Shown here: positions 7,250-45,089 of the stretch, piece by piece
Layout of the letters: each line of letters opens with the position of its first letter
Numbering within the stretch: the first letter of the stretch is position 1
Source of the DNA: a virus
Reading direction: 5' to 3' (one strand)
IMG/VR virus record: IMGVR_UViG_3300043446_003411
Location: 1 to 57,176 of that record
DNA: 57,176 nucleotides
Notes under the pieces: model-generated
The model's input: only the letters and a program-made list of their open reading frames with translations
The model's database searches: none
Told to the model about the DNA's origin: nothing
Made by a program: the position numbers and the translations under genes

Positions 7250-7389
7250 TCTTTGCCCCAGAATCTATCTTTGTAGTCCTCTAAGGCGTCTTCGAGTTCA
7301 TCATTATCGCTCACCCAACTATCGTAAGACTTTGGGTCGCGAATGAGTTGTTCGACCACGTTTTCGTAGTCATCGCGAGTATCTTTCAT
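7246..7389 (-). CDS. Small acidic protein (47 aa)
   Basis: A 47-codon frame begins at ATG 7389, with AAGGAC directly upstream, and ends in an ATGA overlap with the next gene. The sequence is MKDTRDDYENVVEQL... ending DRFWGKE: very acidic and helical. The clean start signal and the 4-base overlap support a real gene despite its size. No family recognised. Confidence 0.65.
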   Translation of the reverse strand: MKDTRDDYENVVEQLIRDPKSYDSWVSDNDELEDALEDYKDRFWGKE

Positions 7390-7420
7390 GTCCTTAGAAT
7401 AAACAAAGGACGGCGAGTTG

Positions 7421-9403
7421 TCAAATTAAATCAATATCTTTGAGCGGGATCCAGAGATGAATATGACTATGGTTCGGAGAGTATTCTTCCAAATTATATT
7501 CAATCATAACCATTCTATCTCTAGGGTCAACAGATAGGATCACAACTTCGTCCCCAACGGGTATTGCGCCGTAGGTTCCTCTGTCTTCTTCCTCGCAACC
7601 CATTTCGCCAGTGACTGGGTTGTATCCAAGATCATCCGGGCTGTAGATAAAATTGCCGTCAGGTCGAATCTTCAATGGTAGTGCGTCCGGATGTGGAACC
7701 AGACCACCACGCTGCTCGCCCCACAACTCTTTTCTAACAAAGCCCCTAGGGGACCGACCACCCGTAAGTTCCTGCTGGATATAAACGACAATGTCTTTGA
7801 TCGGAATATCAGAGGACAGTATCGTTACCGAGGAAGACTTTTTGTTGTCGTCCTCGAAAAGATCAGAGAGACTATCGAATAAACTGAAACTGCTCTCTTG
7901 TGGCTGCTCAATTGCAGGTTGCTCCACCTCGGGCTCTGGCTGAACACTGTCGGCAGGAATTGGCACAGGCTGTTTTATCGGTGTGGTAGGCATTTGCATT
8001 TGTGACCATGCGCCTCCGGGACCAGCCGCTTTGATTCTCTCTTTAATCATCTTCAGGATAACCTTAGGATCCTTGTTCTTAAGGTATCTTTGAATGAAGT
8101 CTCGTCCGCGCTTCTTGTCGTTGACCTCCCACCAATGAAAGTCTCTAAAAAGGTCTTGGGCTTTTGTCTTTGAGAAAAGATCAGAGTCCGGATTCGCGTC
8201 GTAAGCCTCTTGTATGGCGTTTTTTCTTACACGAATCTCTTTCTTTAACTGATCAATTTGTTGTCTTTTCTCTGTGTACTCTCCCCTATCTGCCCAGAAA
8301 TACTCAGGAACTGGTTCGCCCTGCTCGCGCAGCCTTCTGACATCTTCCGGGTCGGCGTCGTAGAACCCTAAGGGGAGTTCCTCTAACTGTCCCTGTTCGT
8401 ATAGATTCATTTGCTCAGGGGTAAGCCTCGGTCCAAATCTTGTGGGCCTGTTGGCCAGAAGTTCTCTCGCCTCTTTGTCAAGACCTATCATCTGGGCAAC
8501 ACGCGCAACAATTTCTTTCTTATAAATTTCTGTTTCCTCTGTGTCGTAAACGTTTCTGGTGTTCACGAGCATTTGAAGTTCTTGCGTTAAGTTAGAGATG
8601 GCGTTTTGATCAGACGGATCCGTTTCGTATATTTCGTTTAGGATCCTTGTAATCTCGTCAACGACCTGATCCGCCGACACAAGGTCAAACTGATCTTGCA
8701 GCGCCTTGTTCAAAACCGAGATGTCTATACCGTCCAGCATCTCCAGTTCTCTTGGGGAGATTCTTCTCCTTTCAGGCTCCTGCTTCTCGTCAACAATCTC
8801 CTTCATTGCGTCCCAGTCAGTTCCTTCTAATCGGTCTTGCTCCAACAGTTCTGGGAAGAACCTCTGCATGACGGAGGGATCGACATCTTCATACTCAACT
8901 GCTCTTGTCATCGATGTCCACCAAAGAGCAAGGATGTGCGAACAGACCCTACCTTCGAACTTCTTATTGACTTCTTTTCTGCGACCGCGCATGTCGACTT
9001 TGTAGATCGGCCTTCGGTCCCAAGCGTATCGCCCCCAAGCGCAAGCGCAAGACCAAGATCTGATCGCTCGGCTCTTTGGGTGCGGAATAAGAATCTTGGC
9101 TTCATAGGATCCGTGGTCGCCAACGATCTTTCCGTACACCTCAATGATCTCATGGGGGAGATTAAGATCGTAAGGTCTTTTGTAAATAAGGCTTACTCTG
9201 TTGGAGGTGACGATAACCTTTGCTTTGCGCTCAACATCGATCCAAGCAGATTGATGCTGCATGCGTCCGAGTTTCTCAATATCGAAACAACCCTGTTCTA
9301 AGTACTGATACGAAACAGGATCGGAGACATAGAGGGATTCCTCATCAGTGAGTTGAGATGGGAGTTTGTCCCAAGCGGCTGCCTTTTGCTTTGTACTAAG
9401 CAT
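7421..9403 (-). CDS. Large protein with SWIM-type zinc finger (660 aa)
   Basis: Residues about 117-160 contain CAC at 119-121 and, after an Arg/Lys-rich spacer, CSH (C154-x-H156) followed by ILALWW: the CxCx(n)CxH layout of a SWIM zinc finger, which binds DNA or protein. Upstream is a beta-rich part (residues 50-115), downstream a long charged helical region (to ~480), an acidic/Pro linker, and a C-terminal beta domain (about 530-660). ATG at 9403 has AAAGGG six bases upstream and was preferred to the TTG two codons earlier. A second SWIM protein lies at 33478-33774. Location suggests a virion-associated role; the function is not known. Confidence 0.75.
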   Translation of the reverse strand: MLSTKQKAAAWDKLPSQLTDEESLYVSDPVSYQYLEQGCFDIEKLGRMQHQSAWIDVERKAKVIVTSNRVSLIYKRPYDLNLPHEIIEVYGKIVGDHGSYEAKILIPHPKSRAIRSWSCACAWGRYAWDRRPIYKVDMRGRRKEVNKKFEGRVCSHILALWWTSMTRAVEYEDVDPSVMQRFFPELLEQDRLEGTDWDAMKEIVDEKQEPERRRISPRELEMLDGIDISVLNKALQDQFDLVSADQVVDEITRILNEIYETDPSDQNAISNLTQELQMLVNTRNVYDTEETEIYKKEIVARVAQMIGLDKEARELLANRPTRFGPRLTPEQMNLYEQGQLEELPLGFYDADPEDVRRLREQGEPVPEYFWADRGEYTEKRQQIDQLKKEIRVRKNAIQEAYDANPDSDLFSKTKAQDLFRDFHWWEVNDKKRGRDFIQRYLKNKDPKVILKMIKERIKAAGPGGAWSQMQMPTTPIKQPVPIPADSVQPEPEVEQPAIEQPQESSFSLFDSLSDLFEDDNKKSSSVTILSSDIPIKDIVVYIQQELTGGRSPRGFVRKELWGEQRGGLVPHPDALPLKIRPDGNFIYSPDDLGYNPVTGEMGCEEEDRGTYGAIPVGDEVVILSVDPRDRMVMIEYNLEEYSPNHSHIHLWIPLKDIDLI

Positions 9404-10484
9404 TAGCAACCCTTTCCTTGATCTTCTTGTCGTCTTGCTGGTGTATCACATACACATGTTTGACTTCATGTTCCGGATACATATCAATCCACAAATTGAT
9501 TAGATGCCTAATAGTATAAGGCAGTGAAGACTGATTGACAATCAGCAAATCCCCATCCGGAGTGTAGTAGCCCTCAGCCACGCCAAACGGATTGGTCTCA
9601 TCGATCTCCACCCTCTCGTCTCCCGGCTCTCCGACATAGAGTCGATCTCTCTCAACATGGAAAGAGAATGGAATAGGTCCTGCCGGCTGCGCAGCACCAA
9701 CGACCTGTCCACCGGGACCACCACCGGGTCTTGATGCCTCGTTGTCAGGATAAAAGTATTCGTCGTTATCTCTGATTTCGTACTCAGGACCTGTTGGCTC
9801 TTTCTTGGGATGATCGTGAGTCATATGCAGAAGGAACTCGCTATAAGAATCAAACACCTCACTGCATTCGGTACAACCATATGTGTCTTCCGACAGTCTA
9901 GGAGTGATGACTCTAAGATCACCTTGACCGGGCAGTTTGCCTCTGTCGTTGTCTTGAATCTGAATGTCTGTTAGCAGGCTCTTATCTGTGTTCTTCCAAG
10001 GATATTTAAAATGGTCATCGCCGATGCCGGGATCTGCGGCCATCTTGCGGATACCGACCGGCAAGGGAATACCATTCTTGTCCTGAACGGAAACGAGATG
10101 CAGCGGGTGGTTCCACTCCTTGAAATTGGTTGAGGGATCTTTCGCCCATCTGCGGAAAATACCGTGCAGAAAATCGAGATCTACATTGGCCTTCTCCACC
10201 ACAAATGATGTCGTCCAGCGATGCGTGATCTCTACGGAGCCCGTTGCAAACGGTCCGTGATGGTCATCGACAATACCTAGTGCCCGATAGGCATCATCAA
10301 GATTATCGGGACTGACAACAAGAATGGTCTTACCAGCAAGAACCCAGCGGAAAACTTGTTTGGTCGCGCCAGACATATCTGACATTTGCTGCCTGTCAAA
10401 CTGGAACTGCAACTCTTGCGGCTGCTGTGCTGGGTAGGCGTCGGTGCCCCATCCGAAGTCGGATTCTTTGCGAATGTCTTCCAT
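9396..10484 (-). CDS. Hypothetical protein with a C2H2-like zinc finger (362 aa)
   Basis: Around residues 203-225 it shows C-x2-C, a 12-residue spacer and H-x4-H (CTECSEVFDSYSEFLLHMTH), the layout of a classical C2H2 finger, uncommon in phage proteins. A Gly/Pro linker (SRPGGGPGGQ) follows, then a C-terminal beta-rich domain. The ATG at 10484 has no Shine-Dalgarno: it directly follows the T-run of an intrinsic terminator (10485-10518), so the gene is probably expressed by read-through or from an unseen start. Function not known; a nucleic-acid or capsid-surface contact is an inference. Confidence 0.75.
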   Translation of the reverse strand: MEDIRKESDFGWGTDAYPAQQPQELQFQFDRQQMSDMSGATKQVFRWVLAGKTILVVSPDNLDDAYRALGIVDDHHGPFATGSVEITHRWTTSFVVEKANVDLDFLHGIFRRWAKDPSTNFKEWNHPLHLVSVQDKNGIPLPVGIRKMAADPGIGDDHFKYPWKNTDKSLLTDIQIQDNDRGKLPGQGDLRVITPRLSEDTYGCTECSEVFDSYSEFLLHMTHDHPKKEPTGPEYEIRDNDEYFYPDNEASRPGGGPGGQVVGAAQPAGPIPFSFHVERDRLYVGEPGDERVEIDETNPFGVAEGYYTPDGDLLIVNQSSLPYTIRHLINLWIDMYPEHEVKHVYVIHQQDDKKIKERVANA

Positions 10485-10518
10485 AACAAAAACGCGCTCT
10501 ATACTAATTAGAGCGCGT
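10485..10518 (-). terminator. Intrinsic terminator or attenuator
   Basis: On the minus strand ACGCGCTCT pairs with AGAGCGCGT (9 bp, 9-base loop) and is followed by TTTTGTT. It ends the candidate RNA of 10485-10660 and stands directly before the ATG of the next gene, so downstream genes would need read-through. Confidence 0.75.
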
Positions 10519-10660
10519 ACACCACACTATAATAGAATGCAGCGGGCCAGAGGACTGGCAAGAGCGGTGGGATCCGATTATGCCAGTGCTCTGGCCCTTT
10601 TGTGGTTTCGAAGACTTCCTGAGAAGTAGACTTCGGATCACCTCCACGCTTGTACCGCTC
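10485..10660 (-). ncRNA. Candidate structured non-coding RNA (~175 nt)
   Basis: No convincing gene fits between the stop at 10668 and the ATG at 10484. On the minus strand the region holds three hairpins in a row: a 6+5 bp hairpin with a TCAG loop (10608-10636), a 17-base inverted repeat with one mismatch and a 20-base loop (arms 10544-10560 and 10581-10597), and the terminator hairpin (10492-10518). At 10635-10645 it also carries GGAGGTGATCC, an 11-base complement of the usual 16S rRNA 3' end, with no start codon at the right distance. A -35/-10 pair lies just upstream. Alternatives are a long structured leader or 3' UTR. Confidence 0.5.
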
Positions 10661-10666
10661 TCGCCT

Positions 10667-10694
10667 ATTATGGCTCGTCCGAAAGCGATAACAA
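10667..10694 (-). promoter_or_regulatory. Candidate promoter for the 10.5-kb RNA
   Basis: TTGTTA (10694-10689) and CATAAT (10672-10667) are separated by 16 bases on the minus strand; they overlap the stop codon of the 64-aa gene. Transcription would start near 10660. Confidence 0.45.
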
Positions 10695-10862
10695 GTATAA
10701 AGCCTTATCGGGATTGCCGCATTTGATTGCCGCCTCGGCAATCCTCAGATCAACGTCTTGCCGAATGGAGATCTCTAAAGCCATTGCTGGCTCCCACCCC
10801 GCAGCAATCAAAACGCTCTTGCGCCAAGCGATAACGGCTTCATCCTCTTTTGAGACTGTCAT
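10668..10862 (-). CDS. Small helical protein (64 aa), actinophage-like
   Basis: The product, from ATG 10862, is a two- or three-helix protein (AWRKSVLIAAGWEPAMAL, DVDLRIAEAAIKCGNPDKAL). The WEPAMALEIS and DVDLRIAEA blocks recall short proteins common in phages of Actinobacteria whose function is not known; this is from memory. No Shine-Dalgarno is visible before the ATG; TTG codons just upstream are alternative starts. A promoter for the following RNA overlaps its stop. Confidence 0.7.
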   Translation of the reverse strand: MTVSKEDEAVIAWRKSVLIAAGWEPAMALEISIRQDVDLRIAEAAIKCGNPDKALYLLSLSDEP

Positions 10863-10868
10863 CAACAA

Positions 10869-12633: not shown

Positions 12634-12812
12634 TACGCCTCGCCCCCTGAGACCTCACCAGAGGCCCATAGAAGGCGCGTACCGTCCTTCTCTTCGATCT
12701 CCTTGATCGCGCTCTGGATTGCGTTGCTGAGGGCATCCTGAGCGTTCTGAGACAGTGGTCCACCGTTCATGTTCCAAACAGTGAAGTGAGTGTAGGTATC
12801 GATAACGGTCAT
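12633..12812 (-). CDS. Small hypothetical protein (59 aa)
   Basis: A 59-codon frame from ATG 12812 to TAA 12633. The ATG overlaps the phosphoesterase stop (ATGA) and the TAA overlaps the next ATG (TAATG), which strongly supports a real gene. The product has a beta hairpin (DTYTHFTVWNMNG), a helix (NAQDALSNAIQSAIKEIEEK) and a strand (TRLLWASGE). Not recognised. Confidence 0.75.
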   Translation of the reverse strand: MTVIDTYTHFTVWNMNGGPLSQNAQDALSNAIQSAIKEIEEKDGTRLLWASGEVSGGEA

Positions 12813-34762: not shown

Positions 34763-36700
34763 ATGACACAAGGTCATAACCTGCCAACAGACTACCAAAG
34801 ATTCATTCATATTAGCCGATACGCTAGATGGGTAGACTCCCTCGGTAGAAGAGAGACATGGGAGGAAACTGTTGATAGATATTTTGACTTCATCGAATCC
34901 AATCTTGCCAAAAAGAATGATTATAAATTGTCTGCAGAACTCAAGAAGGAGTTGCGTTCTGCAGTTCTAGACCTTGACATCATGCCGAGCATGAGAGCAC
35001 TTATGACTGCTGGTCCTGCGCTTGAGCGTGACAACATCGCTGGATATAACTGTTCGTATATTCCGATCAACAGTGTTCGTTCTTTTGACGAAATCCTGTA
35101 CATCCTTATGTGCGGCACCGGTGTTGGCTTCAGTGTAGAGAGACAGTTCGTCAGCGAACTGCCCGTCGTCAATGAGCATTTTGAGAACTCCCCGACCACC
35201 ATCATCGTTGAGGATTCAAAGGCTGGCTGGGCAAGAGCGCTGCGAGAACTGATCGCCATGCTTTACGCAGGCCATGTCCCCTCTTGGGATGTCAGCAAGG
35301 TTCGCCCTGCTGGTGCTCGGCTCAAGACTTTCGGCGGTCGTGCATCTGGGCCCGGTCCTCTTGAGGATCTTTTCCGTTTCTCAATCCGCACATTTCAAAA
35401 TGCCGCTGGCCGTAAACTGACAAGTCTTGAATGCCATGACCTTGTTTGCAAGATCGCAGATATCGTTGTTGTTGGTGGTGTTCGTCGTTCTGCTCTTATC
35501 TCCCTTTCCAATCTTACCGATGATCGTATGCGTCACGCTAAATCCGGCGCTTGGTGGGAGGATAATGTTCAACGCGCTCTCGCCAACAATTCTGTTTGTT
35601 ATACAGAGAAGCCGGAGATGAGTTCCTTCATGGAAGAGTGGCTATCTCTTTATCAGTCGAAGAGCGGTGAGCGCGGAATCTTCAATAGGGACTCAGCCAA
35701 GAAGCACGTTGCTCGCAACGGTAGGCGTGATGTCGAATGGGACTTCGGAACGAATCCTTGCTCTGAGATCATTCTACGCCCGTATCAGTTCTGCAATCTG
35801 ACCGAGGTTGTGGTTCGCGCTGAGGATACGCCGAAGGACATTGAACGCAAGATTCGTCTGGCCACGATCCTTGGGACCTTCCAAGCGACCATGACCGACT
35901 TCAAGTACCTTCGCAAAATCTGGAAGGACAACACAGAAGAAGAGCGCCTGCTGGGTGTTTCTTTGACCGGCATTCTGGACAATAAGTTCATGGCGAATCG
36001 ATCCAGTTCGTTGTCAGACGCTCTGGTTGGCTTCCGTGAAATGGCTGTCAAGACCAATGCTGAATTCGCCAAGAAACTCGGAATCAATCAGTCCGCCTCA
36101 ATCACATGCATCAAACCCAGCGGAACTGTTTCGCAGTTGGTTGACTCTGCGTCGGGCATTCATGCTCGTCATTCTGAATATTACATTCGTCGCGTTCGTG
36201 GAGACAAGAAGGATCCTCTTACTCAGTTCATGATTGACGCTGGCATTCCTTGTGAAGACGATGTGACGAATTCTGAGAATATTGCAGTGTTTTCTTTCCC
36301 GATGAAGTCTCCAAAGGGTGCCGTGCTTCGTGATGATATGAGCGCTCTTGAGCAGTTGGAACTGTGGAAAACGTATCAATTGGAATACACAGAGCACAAG
36401 CCTAGTATCACGGTTTCTGTCAAAGAGCACGAATGGATGGCGGTCGGTTCTTGGGTGTGGGACAACTTTGATTATGTGAGTGGCGTTTCGTTCCTGCCAC
36501 ATTCTGAGCACACCTATCGTCAGGCTCCTTACGAAGACATCGACAAGGACACCTACGAGAAGATGTTGTCGGAAATGCCCTCGACAATCGATTGGTCTCT
36601 TCTCGCCGACTACGAGCAGGAGGACAATACCGATGGTGTTCAGACGCTTGCCTGCTCGAATGGCGCTTGTGAGATCGTTGATGTTGGCATTTCGTCCTAG
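34763..36700 (+). CDS. nrdJ: Adenosylcobalamin-dependent ribonucleotide reductase (class II, monomeric type)
   Basis: 645 residues. It reduces ribonucleotides to deoxyribonucleotides using coenzyme B12. Active-site residues: C97 (NCSY), NPCSE (N331, C333, E335), C344 (QFCNLTE), VGGVRRSALIS (237-247), and the redox-relay pair C631-x4-C636 near the end (CSNGAC). The monomeric form is about 740 residues in Lactobacillus, so this one is shorter. GGAG precedes the ATG. The next gene is a Ni/Co transporter, a fitting supply of cobalt for the cofactor. Confidence 0.95.
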   Translation: MTQGHNLPTDYQRFIHISRYARWVDSLGRRETWEETVDRYFDFIESNLAKKNDYKLSAELKKELRSAVLDLDIMPSMRALMTAGPALERDNIAGYNCSYIPINSVRSFDEILYILMCGTGVGFSVERQFVSELPVVNEHFENSPTTIIVEDSKAGWARALRELIAMLYAGHVPSWDVSKVRPAGARLKTFGGRASGPGPLEDLFRFSIRTFQNAAGRKLTSLECHDLVCKIADIVVVGGVRRSALISLSNLTDDRMRHAKSGAWWEDNVQRALANNSVCYTEKPEMSSFMEEWLSLYQSKSGERGIFNRDSAKKHVARNGRRDVEWDFGTNPCSEIILRPYQFCNLTEVVVRAEDTPKDIERKIRLATILGTFQATMTDFKYLRKIWKDNTEEERLLGVSLTGILDNKFMANRSSSLSDALVGFREMAVKTNAEFAKKLGINQSASITCIKPSGTVSQLVDSASGIHARHSEYYIRRVRGDKKDPLTQFMIDAGIPCEDDVTNSENIAVFSFPMKSPKGAVLRDDMSALEQLELWKTYQLEYTEHKPSITVSVKEHEWMAVGSWVWDNFDYVSGVSFLPHSEHTYRQAPYEDIDKDTYEKMLSEMPSTIDWSLLADYEQEDNTDGVQTLACSNGACEIVDVGISS

Positions 36701-38738: not shown

Positions 38739-38809
38739 TGGGGGATCGTCTAAAGGCAGGACAACGGGTTTTGGTCCCGTGAATTGGGGTTCGAATCCCT
38801 GTCCCCCAG
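38739..38809 (+). tRNA. tRNA-Gln (TTG)
   Basis: Acceptor TGGGGGA/TCCCCCA, anticodon loop with TTG, T-loop TTCGAAT. Reads CAA. The ATG of the next gene is at 38811, one base after the tRNA end. Confidence 0.95.
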
Positions 38810-38810
38810 T

Positions 38811-39539
38811 ATGAGTAAAAAGAAAATCAAGTTCATCTCTAAGGACGCTATTTACGGTAGAGCGTTCACGCCCCCCGGCCCTGCTTCTAAAGACATACCC
38901 AAGTGGTATAAAGAAGAAGAAAGATATATGGGCGGGGAGAAGAGATGGCATAACGACGGCTATCACGCTAGATTCAATCATTCAGTTAAAGCCTGCCCAG
39001 CAGTATACGACTCGATCACGGCTGGCTATGTGTTTTATCTTGATGCGGATGTTCATATTGAAAAGAGTCCCGAAGGCGTTATCAATGTCTCACAGGCAAT
39101 TGATGACGACTATAGACTCGTTTCATTTCATGACATAAAACAGATCAGTAAATTTAATTTTGATAGAGAGTATTGGGACGATACGGTTATTTTTAAGTTT
39201 ATGACCGGATGGAGAATAGAGGTGCCCAAGGGGTACTCATGTCTTTACATGCATCCCATGTGGAGAGAAGAGACACCGTTTAAGATTCTTCCCGGCATAA
39301 TTGATCAAGACAGTTATGGGTTTGTCGCAAACTTTTTCTTCTTTATTAAAAGAGGGTTTGAGGGAACAATACCCAGTGGAACTCCTATTGGCCAAGTCAT
39401 TCCATTCAAAAGAGATGAATGGAGACATGAGGTCGAGTTGGGAACTAGAGAAGACTGGCAGACGATTTACATGAGCGTTAACCGAGAAATTGAAAACGGC
39501 CACAAGAAGAAGAACTATTCCAAAAAGAGATGGCTATGA
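38811..39539 (+). CDS. DUF6065-like protein, copy 1
   Basis: About 242 residues. Start MSKKKIKFISK aligns with MKRKLIQFIPS of the protein at 47400-48113, and both share PP.PA.K..P.WYK, H.IK.CPA..(D)..T.GY, PPGYSCL...PMW.E, G.I..D.Y. and G.PI.QV.PFKRD.W. I recall the family as DUF6065, function unknown; not checked. The gene starts one base after tRNA-Gln with no ribosome site, so RNA processing would leave a leaderless mRNA. Glycosyltransferases follow, hinting at surface or tail modification. Confidence 0.75.
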   Translation: MSKKKIKFISKDAIYGRAFTPPGPASKDIPKWYKEEERYMGGEKRWHNDGYHARFNHSVKACPAVYDSITAGYVFYLDADVHIEKSPEGVINVSQAIDDDYRLVSFHDIKQISKFNFDREYWDDTVIFKFMTGWRIEVPKGYSCLYMHPMWREETPFKILPGIIDQDSYGFVANFFFFIKRGFEGTIPSGTPIGQVIPFKRDEWRHEVELGTREDWQTIYMSVNREIENGHKKKNYSKKRWL

Positions 39540-40252
39540 ACATCGCGGCAATACCGGTTAAGAACAAGATTGAGTGGACTGCCCCTCTTGTAGAGCATTT
39601 GCTTCTGCACGATGATCTAGACCAGATCTGGATATACGATAACGGCAGTACGGATATAACTCGTGAATGGGTAGAGAACCGCAAAAACATTGACCAGAGA
39701 ATTACGATTTTTGATGTTCCGGATATGAAGATCTACGATATGTGGAACGATATGATTCTTATTGCCGCCGAAGAGTATAAGACTTCTAATCTTGCAATTC
39801 TGAACAACGATATTAGACTGCCGCCCTACGCCATTAGAGATATGTCTTTAATGATGCGCAAAGAGGACTATCAGATTGCCGCTGTGGATCCGACCAGAAC
39901 CGGACTGTACACCTTCTCAATTGGCTGGTGGGACCTGTCGCGAGCCCTGCCTCATCCAATTCAACCGTATTGCGAAAGGCTGCATATTGGAGACAGGATT
40001 GGCTGGGCCTTCGTTGTTGCGGCAGAGTTCTGGAAGAATGAGAAGTACGCGATTCATCCGGACTATATTCATTATTTTGGCGATGATGATCTCTATCGCA
40101 GAGCGATGCATCGCGGTGGTAATGCCTGCATTGTGCGTGGCATTGGATGCGATCATGCGGAATCAACCACTGGTGGAATCGACGGCGATCTTTGGAAGCA
40201 CGATGAGGATATCTATATGAGGTTGTGGGATGGCACATCAAGCGCAATTTGA
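39536..40252 (+). CDS. Glycosyltransferase-like protein (GT-A fold)
   Basis: About 238 residues from ATG 39536 (ATGA overlap; AAGAG upstream). DNGST near residue 40, ILNNDI with the DxD-like metal site near 90, and GDDDLYRRAM near 180 mark a nucleotide-sugar-dependent transferase. Acceptor unknown; could decorate virion proteins or host surface. It is made with copy 1 of the DUF6065-like protein and the methyltransferase. Confidence 0.75.
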   Translation: MNIAAIPVKNKIEWTAPLVEHLLLHDDLDQIWIYDNGSTDITREWVENRKNIDQRITIFDVPDMKIYDMWNDMILIAAEEYKTSNLAILNNDIRLPPYAIRDMSLMMRKEDYQIAAVDPTRTGLYTFSIGWWDLSRALPHPIQPYCERLHIGDRIGWAFVVAAEFWKNEKYAIHPDYIHYFGDDDLYRRAMHRGGNACIVRGIGCDHAESTTGGIDGDLWKHDEDIYMRLWDGTSSAI

Positions 40253-40760
40253 TTTTGTTCACTCAGTCAAGAACCGCTATCCAGATATGTTCGGTGGTCG
40301 AACGAAAGTTCTAGAGGTCGGTAGTCTCAACATCAACGGGACTATCCGCAATCTTTTTTCAACATCGTTTTATATCGGAATTGATCTTGAACTGGGCCCC
40401 GGAGTAGATTTGGCAGCGCCCGGTCATACAGTTCTTTTTGCTGACCGATTCTTTGATCTCTCAATCAGTTGCGAATGTTTTGAACATAATCCATACTGGG
40501 TTGAGACATTTTTGAATATGGTGAGAATGACAGACAAAATGGTCGTCTTTACCTGCGCAACAACAGACAGGCCGGAGCACGGAACGACGAGAACAAGCGA
40601 AGCCGAGTCCCCGTTCACAACAGGCATATGGGACTATTATCAGAACCTCACAGAAGATGATTTCAAAGAGTACATAGAACTAGAAAAGCATTTCGCTTTT
40701 TATGAATTCACTTCTAATGAAACAGCACACGATCTATATTTCTGGGGAATCAGAAAATGA
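40230..40760 (+). CDS. SAM-dependent methyltransferase
   Basis: 176 residues. LEVGSLNINGTI is the motif I loop for SAM, YIGIDLELG motif II, SCECFEHN motif with acidic strand 4. Class I fold. A GAGG lies upstream of the ATG, and the gene overlaps its neighbours by 23 and 4 bases. Between two glycosyltransferases it may methylate a sugar or a small acceptor; that is inference. Confidence 0.85.
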   Translation: MAHQAQFDFVHSVKNRYPDMFGGRTKVLEVGSLNINGTIRNLFSTSFYIGIDLELGPGVDLAAPGHTVLFADRFFDLSISCECFEHNPYWVETFLNMVRMTDKMVVFTCATTDRPEHGTTRTSEAESPFTTGIWDYYQNLTEDDFKEYIELEKHFAFYEFTSNETAHDLYFWGIRK

Positions 40761-41458
40761 AAGCGTCTATTGTTATACCCACATACGACAGCGTCCATCT
40801 AATCGAAGACTGTCTTCGGTCACTGTTGGAGCGTGTTGACGCAGAGGTAATTGTTGTTGACAACGGATCCAGAGAATACTCTACAAAAGTATTTAATGAT
40901 CAAATCATTTATCTGCGCTTCTGTGAAAACCTTGGTTTCTCTCGGGCTTGCAACATGGGCGCAAAAGTATCTTCCGGCGACATAATCATTTTTCTCAACA
41001 ATGATACGATTATCAGCAATGACTTTGTCACGCCGATCCTTAATGTTTTTGCTCATGATGACGCCGGCATTGTCGGCAGCAAATTGCTTTATGAGAACGG
41101 CGACATTCAGCATGCCGGAATTGATTTTGAGATCAGAGACGGGAACCTTGAGGGGCGAAACATTCACGAGGATATGCCGTTCGGTGAAGTGGCCGCTGTT
41201 ACAGGCGCATGTCTTGCAATCAAGAGAGACCTGTTCTTTTCTCTGAATGGTTTTGATGAGGCGTACTGGGTCGGAAACGAAGACAGCGATCTCTGCTTCA
41301 GAGCGCGAGAAGCCGGAGAGAAGGTTGTCTATCAGCCCCTGTCAGTCCTTACTCATCTTGAGAGTTGTTCGGGATCGGCTCGCTGGGTGGCCGTCACAGA
41401 GAACGTGCGGATCCTGACTGAGCGTTGGGCGAACAAGCCAGAGGTGTGGATGCTATGA
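40757..41458 (+). CDS. Family 2 glycosyltransferase
   Basis: 233 residues. MKASIVIPTYDS (strand 1), VVDNGS (35-38), FLNNDT (80-84; the DxD-like site), TGACLAIKRDLF and GNEDSDLCFRAREAG are the family 2 landmarks. It would add a sugar from a nucleotide donor. It closes the four-gene modification group, 41 bases before the tRNA cluster. Confidence 0.9.
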   Translation: MKASIVIPTYDSVHLIEDCLRSLLERVDAEVIVVDNGSREYSTKVFNDQIIYLRFCENLGFSRACNMGAKVSSGDIIIFLNNDTIISNDFVTPILNVFAHDDAGIVGSKLLYENGDIQHAGIDFEIRDGNLEGRNIHEDMPFGEVAAVTGACLAIKRDLFFSLNGFDEAYWVGNEDSDLCFRAREAGEKVVYQPLSVLTHLESCSGSARWVAVTENVRILTERWANKPEVWML

Positions 41459-41499
41459 TGAATCGTCCCCGCCCGCGAGGCGCATTTTTATAAAGACAG

Positions 41500-41582
<83 letters not shown>

Positions 41583-41583
41583 A

Positions 41584-41668
41584 GGATGGTTGGCCGAGTG
41601 GTTGAAGGCACCAGTCTTGAAAACTGGCAAGAGTAACATCTTCGGGGGTTCGAATCCCTCACCATCCG
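41584..41668 (+). tRNA. tRNA-Ser (TGA)
   Basis: Acceptor GGATGGT/ACCATCC, anticodon loop CTTGAAA between CCAGT and ACTGG, long variable arm. Reads UCA. Confidence 0.95.
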
Positions 41669-41670
41669 TT

Positions 41671-41757
41671 GGAGCGGTGGCCGAGTGGCTTAAGGTACCT
41701 CCCTGCTAAGGAGGCGTGTGGGAAACTGCACCGTTGGTTCGAATCCAACCCGTTCCG
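41671..41757 (+). tRNA. tRNA-Ser (GCT)
   Basis: Acceptor GGAGCGG/CCGTTCC (one G-U), anticodon loop CTGCTAA between CCTCC and GGAGG, long variable arm. Reads AGC/AGU. Confidence 0.95.
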
Positions 41758-41766
41758 TGATATAAT
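41758..41766 (+). promoter_or_regulatory. Extended -10 promoter for tRNA-Asn/Thr
   Basis: TGATATAAT directly after tRNA-Ser; start expected near 41773, 13 bases before tRNA-Asn. No clear -35. Confidence 0.5.
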
Positions 41767-41785
41767 GAATTCGGCACTGCTGCCA

Positions 41786-41857
41786 TGGTCGGTAGTTCAA
41801 CGGCAGAACCCCGCACTGTTAATGCGGTTGTTGCAGGTTCGAATCCTGCCCGACCAG
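41786..41857 (+). tRNA. tRNA-Asn (GTT)
   Basis: Acceptor TGGTCGG/CCGACCA, anticodon loop CTGTTAA between CCGCA and TGCGG, T-loop TTCGAAT. Confidence 0.95.
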
Positions 41858-41859
41858 TC

Positions 41860-41933
41860 GCCGGGCTAACTCAGTTGGCCAGAGTGCCTCCCTTGTAAGG
41901 AGGAAGTCGTCGGTTCGAATCCGACGCCCGGCT
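41860..41933 (+). tRNA. tRNA-Thr (TGT)
   Basis: Acceptor GCCGGGC/GCCCGGC, anticodon loop CTTGTAA between CCTCC and GGAGG. Reads ACA. Confidence 0.95.
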
Positions 41934-41934
41934 C

Positions 41935-41943
41935 TGCTATAAT
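41935..41943 (+). promoter_or_regulatory. Extended -10 of a leaderless promoter
   Basis: TGCTATAAT, then six bases, then the ATG of the deaminase at 41950, so transcription probably starts at the A of the ATG. The same form precedes the gene starting at 46308. Confidence 0.65.
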
Positions 41944-41949
41944 TTGATC

Positions 41950-42399
41950 ATGAAGGAGGATGACCTGATTGATCTTGCGCATCGAATAGCGCAGCGTTCT
42001 CCGGTCCGCCGATTTCAGACTGGCGCGGTCATTGAGAAGAACGGAGTCATTCTATCCACCGGTTGGAGCCATGCCTCTGATCGTAATATGGCATGCTATC
42101 GATCCATGCATGCGGAACTTCACGCGATATCTAGATGTGATGTGAGGGATACCGTCGGATCTACAATAGCCATTGTGACCCTATCTAGGAAATCCGGCAA
42201 CCGTACCGACGGTACCCCCTGTCTTTTCTGTCTACGGAACATTCAAAAATTCGGCATAGAGAAGATCATATGCACAACCACAGGTGGCGGATCCAAAGTC
42301 ATTTACGCAGATCTTCTGGACATGTCAAAGATATCCGATAAAATGGACATGTCCGCGAAAAAGAAATATGTTGGCCACATCCTCTCATATGCGAGTTGA
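41950..42399 (+). CDS. Deoxycytidylate/cytidine deaminase family
   Basis: 149 residues from ATG 41950. Zinc site: HAE (H54, E56) and PCLFC (C91, C94). GAVIEKNGVILSTGW is the first sheet. dCMP deaminase is the likely activity, giving dUMP for thymidylate synthesis; no nucleotide-allosteric region is obvious, so a free-base or RNA deaminase is possible. The mRNA is probably leaderless. Confidence 0.85.
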   Translation: MKEDDLIDLAHRIAQRSPVRRFQTGAVIEKNGVILSTGWSHASDRNMACYRSMHAELHAISRCDVRDTVGSTIAIVTLSRKSGNRTDGTPCLFCLRNIQKFGIEKIICTTTGGGSKVIYADLLDMSKISDKMDMSAKKKYVGHILSYAS

Positions 42400-44290
42400 G
42401 ACATTCACTCCGGAAATAGAAGACGAACTTTCCTCCCTCACTGCAGAGGCTCGAAAGAAAATTCTATTTATTGAGAACCACCCGATGATTGAGATGCACT
42501 GGTATGTCTCCGCTTTCGACAAGTCTTTCATAAAAGATTTTTCTTTCCTGAACAGTCGTCCGATCATTAATCCGTTTCAGATTCGTCGTCTTGCCGCCGA
42601 AGCGGAAAGACAGGGCTACCGAATGATCTGGTTGAGCGATCCAACCGAGGTGTTGGATTGGATCGACTCGCTTGACAACGAGCCCGACGTTCTCCTGCAG
42701 AGCGAACTTCCGGGAACAATCAGCGGCTTTCTCCCTTTTCAGATACAGGGATACAACTTTCTAAAGACGAAGCAAGCAGGGATAGCCAACTGGTCAACAG
42801 GAACGGGTAAAAGCGTTCTGGCCTGCGGTCTGGTTAAACACCATTTCGAGAACAAGAACTTTGATGTCTGTCTCTGGGTGGTAAAAACTCACAACAAGAT
42901 CAACACTCAAAGAACCATGGATCGCCTGACCGGGCTGGGCGAGCACTCAGTTGTGATTGACGGCTCTAGGAAAAAGCGCATCACTCTCTACGAGCAGGCA
43001 GAGAAGATAGACCGACCAATCATCATTCTGAACTACGAAAAGTTTCGAGATGATCCTGCAGACATATTGCGACTGATCGAAGGCAAAAGCGTATTCATTA
43101 TCTGGGATGAGATGCCGACGAAACTGAAGAACAGAGACACCAAGTTGTATCGAGCAATAGTCTCGCTGCTTTATCAGAACAAAAGCAAATTGTCTCTTGA
43201 GAAAATCAAGCCAAAGCACATCTCTCAGGTGATGCTTTCGGCAACACCAATTGAGAACTCCCCTGAGGATTTCTTCAACTGTGTTCGCCTAATGGATCCC
43301 ACCGTATTCGGAACGGTCAAGGAGTTTCATTCAAAGTATGTCGCTTCATTTAGTCGTTTCGGATGGAAACAGCCGGAGAGATGGAAGAACCTCGACCTGA
43401 TGGGCGCGAAGGCAGCGCATATGACGCATCAGGTTGACAAGAACGATAAAGACATTGCGTCTCAGTTTCCCAACGTCATTGATGAGATCGTCTATGTTGA
43501 CATGGGAGAAGGCCACAAGAGGATCTATGACCTTCTCATGGGCCAATACCAGAAAGACATGTCGCAGGATCTTGATGCGCCCAACATGCTCTCTAGAATC
43601 AATGTTGCACAGATGCTTCTCAATCACCCAAGGTCAGTTCTCATTAGCGCAGATCGCAGGGAGGATGCAATTCAATCCACCCTTGATGGGATACCAGACT
43701 TTGGGGGATCTGAGTTCGCACGTCGTCTTGTGGCGAGCGTTGGTCGAGAGGCTTTTGCCAAAACCGAATGTGAGAAACTTGATGTGCTCCAAGACATTTT
43801 GGAGTCGAATGACGGCAAGTGCATTGTGTTCACGTCCATGAATGCAACGCTCATACCGCTCATTAGTGAGGCCCTCGACAAGTGGAAGTGCGGACATGTC
43901 GTTTATCACGGTTCACTGTCAATGAAAGAAAAACAAGAAGCAGAAGACCGTTTCAAAAACGATCCAAACATTCGAGTTTTCGTATCCTCTGACGCCGGCT
44001 CTGACTCAATTAATCTAGAGATTGCGAAGACTGTTGTTCACTACGATATGCCATGGAAATGGTCAACGCTAATCCAACGACAGAATAGAGCCCACCGCAT
44101 CACATCAGAGCACGATCATGTTCGCTATTACACTCTGATGTTTTCCAACACCGTAGAAGAGCGCAAGAGAGATAAGATTCTTTTGAAGGAGAATTTTCAC
44201 GATGCCGTGCTGCGTGGATCGGTTGCAGAGATTTCTGGAGGAGCGAGACTTGGCCGCAAAGAACTTAAGTATATCTTGTTCGGCTCCTAG
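42389..44290 (+). CDS. SNF2-family DNA helicase/translocase
   Basis: 633 residues from ATG 42389. Motif I STGTGKS (136-142), II IWDEMP, III SATPIEN, and the C-terminal helicase with VFTSMN, VYHGSLS, DAGSDSINLE and motif VI QRQNRAHRI. Such ATPases move along duplex DNA; phage copies are linked to replication, repair or evading restriction. Overlaps the deaminase by 11 bases; weak ribosome site. The first ~100 residues show no known domain. Confidence 0.85.
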   Translation: MRVETFTPEIEDELSSLTAEARKKILFIENHPMIEMHWYVSAFDKSFIKDFSFLNSRPIINPFQIRRLAAEAERQGYRMIWLSDPTEVLDWIDSLDNEPDVLLQSELPGTISGFLPFQIQGYNFLKTKQAGIANWSTGTGKSVLACGLVKHHFENKNFDVCLWVVKTHNKINTQRTMDRLTGLGEHSVVIDGSRKKRITLYEQAEKIDRPIIILNYEKFRDDPADILRLIEGKSVFIIWDEMPTKLKNRDTKLYRAIVSLLYQNKSKLSLEKIKPKHISQVMLSATPIENSPEDFFNCVRLMDPTVFGTVKEFHSKYVASFSRFGWKQPERWKNLDLMGAKAAHMTHQVDKNDKDIASQFPNVIDEIVYVDMGEGHKRIYDLLMGQYQKDMSQDLDAPNMLSRINVAQMLLNHPRSVLISADRREDAIQSTLDGIPDFGGSEFARRLVASVGREAFAKTECEKLDVLQDILESNDGKCIVFTSMNATLIPLISEALDKWKCGHVVYHGSLSMKEKQEAEDRFKNDPNIRVFVSSDAGSDSINLEIAKTVVHYDMPWKWSTLIQRQNRAHRITSEHDHVRYYTLMFSNTVEERKRDKILLKENFHDAVLRGSVAEISGGARLGRKELKYILFGS

Positions 44291-44310
44291 CGCTATGCTA
44301 GGATTGAATC

Positions 44311-44384
44311 AGGCGGTGGGAGTACTGGTTGACTCATCCACTCTTATAAGGTGGACTTGCAGGGTTCGATTCCCTGACCGCCTA
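44311..44384 (+). tRNA. tRNA-Ile (TAT)
   Basis: Acceptor AGGCGGT/ACCGCCT, anticodon loop CTTATAA, T-arm CAGGG-TTCGATT-CCCTG. Reads the rare AUA codon. Confidence 0.9.
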
Positions 44385-44386
44385 CT

Positions 44387-44436
44387 TGGAAGGAAAATTG
44401 ACGCGAGATCGCGGGTTAGGCGTACCCCTCCTTCCA
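44387..44436 (+). other. Compact three-stem RNA-like element after tRNA-Ile
   Basis: TGGAAGGA (44387-44394) pairs with TCCTTCCA (44429-44436), enclosing CGCG-AGAT-CGCG and GGGT-7-base loop-ACCC. It is 50 bases long, close to the size of an arm-poor tRNA, but has no anticodon arm I could identify. The rest of the spacer to 44554 holds an A/T-rich inverted repeat CTTTTAA/TTAAAAG and no gene. Confidence 0.4.
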
Positions 44437-44554
44437 TTCATTGTCGGTGCCTTTATACTAGTCAAACGAGGTTCCGGCCCCCGGTCCTGAGCATGACTTC
44501 TAAACTGCTCAACTTTTAATACTTAGTTTCGGTTAAAAGCGGCACATAAAGAGT

Positions 44555-45025
44555 ATGAAGACATGCTCTAAGTGCAAGCAAAACTTGCCGCTAACCGAAT
44601 TTAACAAGAAGTCTAATCGCAAAGACGGGCTTCAACCTTTCTGCCGCGAATGCAATCGCGCTCGCTCCCGTCAGTACTATGCTGAGAATCGGGACAAGCA
44701 TCTTTCTGTTGTAAGCAAAAGAAAAATAGAGCAGATAGCAAAAGCAAACGCTTTTGTTGCTGACTTTCTGTCAGAGAAAAATTGTGCCGACTGCGAAGAA
44801 AAGAACATTTTGGTTTTAGAGTTTGATCATATCTTTGGTGACAAAAGAAACAATATATGCACAATGATAGGAAACGGTTATTCCGTAGACTCAATTAAAG
44901 AAGAAATAAGCAAATGCGAGGTTGTTTGCCGAAATTGCCATTCTATTCGGACTCATCGTCGCGGCAACACATTCAAGTGGCGCTACCTTCAAGAACGTGC
45001 TAGTCTCACAGAGACGGGATCGTAG
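44555..45025 (+). CDS. HNH endonuclease beside tRNA-Lys
   Basis: 156 residues. Zinc pairs CSKCK (4-8) and FCREC; the nuclease core has CADCEE, LEFDHI (HNH His) and VVCRNCHSIRTHRR. A free-standing homing-type enzyme. Its last codons overlap the first 10 bases of tRNA-Lys, and a 25-base copy of the tRNA's 3' end lies just beyond: a possible trace of how it arrived. Confidence 0.9.
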   Translation: MKTCSKCKQNLPLTEFNKKSNRKDGLQPFCRECNRARSRQYYAENRDKHLSVVSKRKIEQIAKANAFVADFLSEKNCADCEEKNILVLEFDHIFGDKRNNICTMIGNGYSVDSIKEEISKCEVVCRNCHSIRTHRRGNTFKWRYLQERASLTETGS

Positions 45026-45089
45026 CCAAGCGGTAAGGCAGCGGACTTTTAATCCGAAGATTTCGAAGGTTCGAATCCTTCCGGTCCCA
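45016..45089 (+). tRNA. tRNA-Lys (TTT)
   Basis: Acceptor GGGATCG/CGGTCCC (one G-U), anticodon loop CTTTTAA, T-arm GAAGG-TTCGAAT-CCTTC. The first anticodon-stem pair is G-A. Confidence 0.85.

Follow-up and report, generated by a model that had tools for sequence, protein, structure and literature searches.

A conserved structured phage RNA with an orphan extended Shine-Dalgarno sequence, a candidate for docking the 30S subunit

A gap between two minus-strand genes of a viral record of 57 kb (57,176 nt, the whole stretch of DNA analysed, hereafter the window) encodes a real, conserved and structured phage RNA that has no match in Rfam. By computation we found a fold with covariation among related phages, an intrinsic terminator and a conserved complementarity to the 3' end of 16S rRNA, and this Shine-Dalgarno (SD) sequence is accompanied by neither a start codon nor a conserved open reading frame. 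The RNA is likely to dock the 30S subunit through this orphan SD; from the docking we infer a consequence, either that the RNA acts as a decoy or that it protects itself. If docking does take place, we have here a conserved phage RNA with an orphan SD at its core.

The gap covers 183 nt (10485-10667, minus strand), with the upstream open reading frame ending at 10668 and the downstream one starting at 10484. The features of the locus, in the direction of transcription, are the following.

10668-10868, minus strand: upstream 66-aa gene, a synteny marker conserved in the relatives.
10667-10694, minus strand: promoter-like pair TTGTTA-16-CATAAT (9/12), weak and not established.
10485-10667, minus strand: the whole structured non-coding element (z -5.9, rank 1 of 3,802 tiles), with covariance-model homologues in the relatives L001, L149 and L150.
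10654-10665, minus strand: 5' strand of P1, GGCGAGAGCGGU, predicted to form 12 pairs with 10557-10568 (pseudoknot; shuffle test below).
10635-10645, minus strand: orphan extended SD, GGAGGUGAUCC, a perfect 11-nt complement of GGAUCACCUCC, with which bacterial 16S rRNA ends at its 3' side.
10604-10642, minus strand: hairpin P2 (GGU/ACC, CGAAG/CUUCG, a UCU bulge, ACUUC/GAAGU), with covariation and wobble changes; its base overlaps the SD.
10544-10597, minus strand: middle hairpin P3, whose loop holds the 3' strand of P1; three pairs with two-sided changes once L150 is added.
10557-10568, minus strand: 3' strand of P1, ACCGCUCUUGCC, inside the P3 loop; the pairs at the top of P3 compete for its 3' part.
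10529-10540, minus strand: linker GCATTCTATTAT, joining P3 to the terminator, without any difference between the window, L001 and L149.
10486-10518, minus strand: hairpin and U-tract of the intrinsic terminator, separated by 3 nt from the next ATG, with equivalents in L001, L149, L150 and L157.
9396-10484, minus strand: downstream 362-aa gene with a weak C2H2 zinc-finger-like motif and without an SD of its own.

The original prediction, made from the sequence of the window, had placed three strong hairpins and an intrinsic terminator in this gap. They are indeed present, and the region is the most structured of the window: its minimum free energy is -75.2 kcal/mol, against -52.9 +/- 3.8 in dinucleotide shuffles (z -5.9, 0 of 200 shuffles), and it ranks at the top of the 3,802 GC-corrected 150-nt tiles on both strands. 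The middle hairpin, described as a 17-base inverted repeat with one mismatch, was confirmed as such, since its arms (10597-10581 with 10560-10544) span 17 positions with one C.C mismatch; no longer inverted repeat was found in the window. The terminator (10518-10492) has 10 pairs followed by TTTTT; among 28 hits in 20 kb, none is stronger. Its T-run had been said to touch the next ATG, which is nearly right, with 3 nt (GTT) between the two.

The pairing of the 5' end of the RNA with the loop of the middle hairpin was overlooked in that prediction; an H-type pseudoknot of P1 and P3 is supported by the following comparisons. Compared with 1,000 shuffles, the P1 duplex beats 997 in the window (p 0.003), 998 in L001 (p 0.002) and all in L149 (p <0.001), and is not significant by this test in L150 and L157. 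The letters of P1 have changed on both sides in L149, and 12 pairs remain with one U bulged when the pairing is set by hand to allow for the bulge. Because of this bulge the changes are invisible to the MAFFT alignment of three sequences, in which no two-sided change was counted in P1. Strands taken from different phages form 8-10 pairs, versus 11-12 with their own partner. With P1 formed, opening the SD is computed to cost 5-9 kcal/mol, versus the 19-22 kcal/mol gained from pairing with the 16S tail.

Five contigs with related flanking genes were found by protein searches, and four of them keep an RNA at this locus. Three (L001, L149 and L150) have a homologous gap, recognised by sequence or by covariance model. 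The fourth, L157, is assigned by layout only: its gap is longer, has the same order of features and is not recognised by sequence or by the model. In the fifth, L153, both neighbouring genes are present, the gap is only 23 nt, and the RNA and terminator are absent, so that the element is dispensable in this phage. L153 has a closer portal protein than L156 (the L150 contig) and L157, which makes a loss in L153 the simpler reading. With the covariance model, for which three sequences were used, L150 is detected at E 1.7e-9 and nothing significant appeared in 100 unrelated loci from pattern matches in viral contigs; the pattern matches included one true homologue.

In the three-sequence alignment, no two-sided covariation was seen in the nested helices, where it appeared only after L150 was added. 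The four-sequence alignment of P2 and P3 has 6 pairs with two-sided changes (0 of 500 shuffles) and 96.8% of its cells pair, with slid controls falling to 38-50%, in an alignment of few sequences made with the covariance model, a procedure that favours that model. Covariation of the hairpins in related phages, proposed as a check in the original prediction, is thus present. The RNA is 84% identical in L001 and 78% in L149, versus 65-71% for the flanking genes, which indicates stronger constraint on the RNA in these two closest relatives; for L150 the values are 68% versus 65% for the neighbouring genes. A terminator follows the RNA in the window as well as in L001, L149, L150 and L157, the last two having unrelated stems; none is found in the L153 gap. 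Coding or recoding (a frameshift or an overlapping reading frame) was considered and rejected, as the frames shift and contain stops in the relatives and no open reading frame is conserved. Good support for the earlier view of a structured non-coding RNA with its own terminator comes from the covariation, the conservation above the neighbours, the terminator in four relatives and the lack of a conserved reading frame.

The window portal protein shares about 40% identity with its counterparts in the Rhodococcus phages E3 and Finch, and a little less with those in Gordonia and Mycobacterium phages; from this resemblance the host is likely to be an actinobacterium. The gap DNA has no match among 50,697 phage records, and neither the search of a phage collection with the downstream-gene protein nor the search of a genome collection gave a match. 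The RNA element is present in a single copy per genome. Two other gaps, at 7250-7420 and 12634-12808, were inspected by eye and both contain ATG-led reading frames. The CxxC...H...H motif of the 362-aa protein (9396-10484) is kept in relatives and falls below the Pfam cut-off; in L157 (13708-17457) and L158 (16067-19663) the homologue of this gene lies within a 1,200-aa protein that also matches a tRNA nucleotidyltransferase (phrog_2244). Elsewhere the window carries eight tRNA genes on the plus strand (38739-45089; Gln, Leu, two Ser, Asn, Thr, Ile and Lys) and, at 34763-36700, a ribonucleotide reductase with a B12-dependent (class II) insertion domain.

The most telling feature of the RNA is the orphan SD, which had gone unnoticed in the original prediction. 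GGAGGUGAUCC has no other exact match in the window, and its anti-SD duplex of -23.4 kcal/mol is the strongest on both window strands (the next is -19.6), as computed against the general bacterial 16S tail, which may not be that of the host. The equivalents in the relatives are GGGGGUGAUCC, GGGGGUGAUCU, GGAGGUGAUCC and GGUGGUGAUCC, with duplexes of -20.1 to -23.5 kcal/mol, so that the pairing is kept in L001, L149, L150 and L157; the changes are wobble-compatible (GGAGG to GGGGG, C to U), bar one letter in L157. This site also ranks highest among the anti-SD sites of the L152, L150, L156 and L155 loci; in L157 one other site is better, by 0.1 kcal/mol. The SD lies partly inside the base of P2. 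No start codon (ATG, GTG or TTG) was found at a usable distance after it in any of the five sequences; an ATC at 2 nt is too close, and a TTG in L157, at 13 nt, is beyond the usual spacing. A few anti-SD sites, down to -19.3 kcal/mol and all weaker, occur in comparable regions of phages E3, Finch and Alice. In more distant relatives, a second kind of orphan extended SD was observed at another locus, directly before a terminator hairpin, 3' of a tail-fibre-like gene, at L158:4318-4370 (AAGGGGGUGAUCC, -24.5 kcal/mol) and L160:3854-3905 (UAGGAGGUGACCC, -19.1 kcal/mol); in L160 the next gene begins about 70 nt after this site. From these cases, only two in number, orphan SDs next to terminators may be a recurrent feature of this phage group.

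A -35/-10 pair had also been proposed. The sequence exists (9/12), and as a promoter it does not rise above chance, with 24 such matches found versus 20.3 expected. The pair sits at the end of the upstream gene, reaches the scan threshold in the window and L150 and not in L001, L149 or L157, and implies a transcription start downstream of the outer P1 pairs. An ATAAT box at 10667-10672 overlaps with the end of the 66-aa gene. The four sequences whose RNA is recognisable by sequence all retain it despite a differing gene frame, and it is altered in L153, the phage without the RNA. A promoter in the linker was discarded, as no -35 was seen by eye and the motif recurs in the window no more often than by chance. 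Scans of the window and three homologues with Rfam 15, also foreseen in the original prediction, brought no family above the gathering cut-off. The best score was for VrrA (RF01456), 33.7 bits against a cut-off of 50, with 27.4 for L149 and no listing for L150 and L157. A hammerhead-like GUGAUCC...GAAA noticed by eye was likewise rejected: stems I and III and the cleavage site do not form, and no Rfam ribozyme matches.

The reading that we favour begins with transcription of the minus gene strand into a separate RNA of about 165-180 nt, which would be ended by its own intrinsic terminator. The 5' strand would pair with the P3 loop, and P2 and the orphan SD would lie in the loop so formed. The SD would then pair with the 16S rRNA 3' tail and dock the 30S subunit; since no start codon follows, the docked subunit would be unable to initiate. 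During infection the RNA may thus occupy the anti-SD tails of some 30S subunits and bias translation, and may itself be shielded from decay. A separate 30S-docking RNA is the simplest reading of a terminator, a pseudoknot and an orphan SD found together. Even in L153, a phage without the element, no SD precedes the downstream gene, which argues against a simple role of the element as its ribosome-binding site, and the terminator between SD and gene argues against a simple 5' stabiliser. The complete account, in which a discrete pseudoknotted RNA docks the subunit, biases translation and is protected from decay, has in our estimate slightly less than an even chance of being correct. That the RNA is a decoy, its maximal SD tying up the 16S tail or shielding it from toxins that cleave the anti-SD, is unlikely. 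If true, 30S docking suggests a cheap, protein-free way for a virus to tune host translation, and the combination of an extended SD without a start codon, a pseudoknot and a terminator is a signature that can be searched for in other phages. At the least, the locus adds a covariation-supported RNA without an Rfam match, in phages with portal proteins that are distant relatives of those from Rhodococcus, Gordonia and Mycobacterium phages.

The SD could instead serve the downstream gene in cis. A 30S subunit bound about 150 nt upstream of the ATG would block a 5'-3' exonuclease, or stand by and slide to the SD-less start, with the terminator partly read through. The distance of the SD from a start lacking one fits such a leader, and precedents exist: the stabilising SD (STAB-SD) of cry3A lies near the 5' end of a transcript that starts 129 nt before the gene and binds 30S without initiating (PMC4113751), and tisB depends on a standby site, 100 nt upstream, together with a pseudoknot (PMC7708055). 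However, a conserved terminator separates the SD from the gene in the window and four relatives, the version of the gene in L153, also SD-less, has neither element, and in L160 the orphan SD, which is followed by a terminator, has no position from which it could serve the next gene. We consider a cis leader rather unlikely. An attenuator, which had been the other suggestion for this gap, or a riboswitch would act on the downstream genes by means of a terminator that can fold in alternative ways. The terminator does lie directly before the gene, and competing folds exist, such as that of the P1 5' strand with the 5' arm of the terminator in the window and L001. The strongest competitor is, however, a P3 arm in L149 and L150 and lies at another place in L157, and these differing positions speak against a conserved switch. 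No conserved antiterminator pairing was found in the window, L001, L149, L150 or L157, and L153 keeps the downstream gene without RNA or terminator; moreover, no Rfam riboswitch matches and the orphan SD would be left unexplained. This makes attenuation quite improbable.

A structured RNA with another function, such as a base-pairing small RNA, a sponge or a protein-binding RNA, would need the SD-like motif for its fold or for a different partner. Most recognisable homologues do have the GGU of the motif paired within P2, and the window offers GGUGAUCC a further partner in GGAUC of the P3 loop; yet more letters are conserved than P2 requires, they follow the 16S complement, and the changes among them preserve wobble pairing. 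We regard this explanation as very doubtful. Intergenic terminators are common in phages, and the gap might be a plain terminator region with fortuitous structure. This view is disfavoured by the covariation, the pseudoknot and the conservation above the coding neighbours, which leave it with hardly any probability.

In the open-access literature searched, whose coverage is incomplete and gives no proof of novelty, we found no natural trans-acting RNA with an orphan SD. The closest system is the STAB-SD of Bacillus thuringiensis cry3A, where 30S binds but does not initiate and RNase J1 is blocked (PMC4113751; PMC3997798). As in cry3A, an SD without an associated start codon, complementary to the 16S 3' end, lies about 100-150 nt before a gene, and to judge from its sequence it may hold 30S here too. 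The STAB-SD is part of a 5' UTR and protects the downstream mRNA, whereas here a pseudoknot surrounds the SD and the terminator, in the window and four relatives, would interrupt the continuity with a stabilised mRNA unless it is read through. By analogy, the 30S-binding step is best read as working like that of the Bacillus STAB-SD. The E. coli tisB mRNA also combines a pseudoknot with a standby site (PMC7708055), and distant standby modules can work (PMC3936740). The likeness is that of a pseudoknot near a candidate 30S-binding site, which in tisB is about 100 nt upstream of the start codon. The tisB standby site is single-stranded and linked to S1, and tisB has its own sequestered ribosome-binding site; here, in contrast, the site is an 11-nt SD, a terminator intervenes, and no SD that could be sequestered was found before 10484. 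VrrA (RF01456) shares the layout of hairpin and terminator, and the match covers only these generic parts. Finally, removal of the anti-SD from 16S rRNA by MazF-mt11 nearly halts protein synthesis (PMC12274833). The common target is the 16S tail and, although MazF-mt11 is a protein nuclease and not an RNA, it shows that this tail is a control point.
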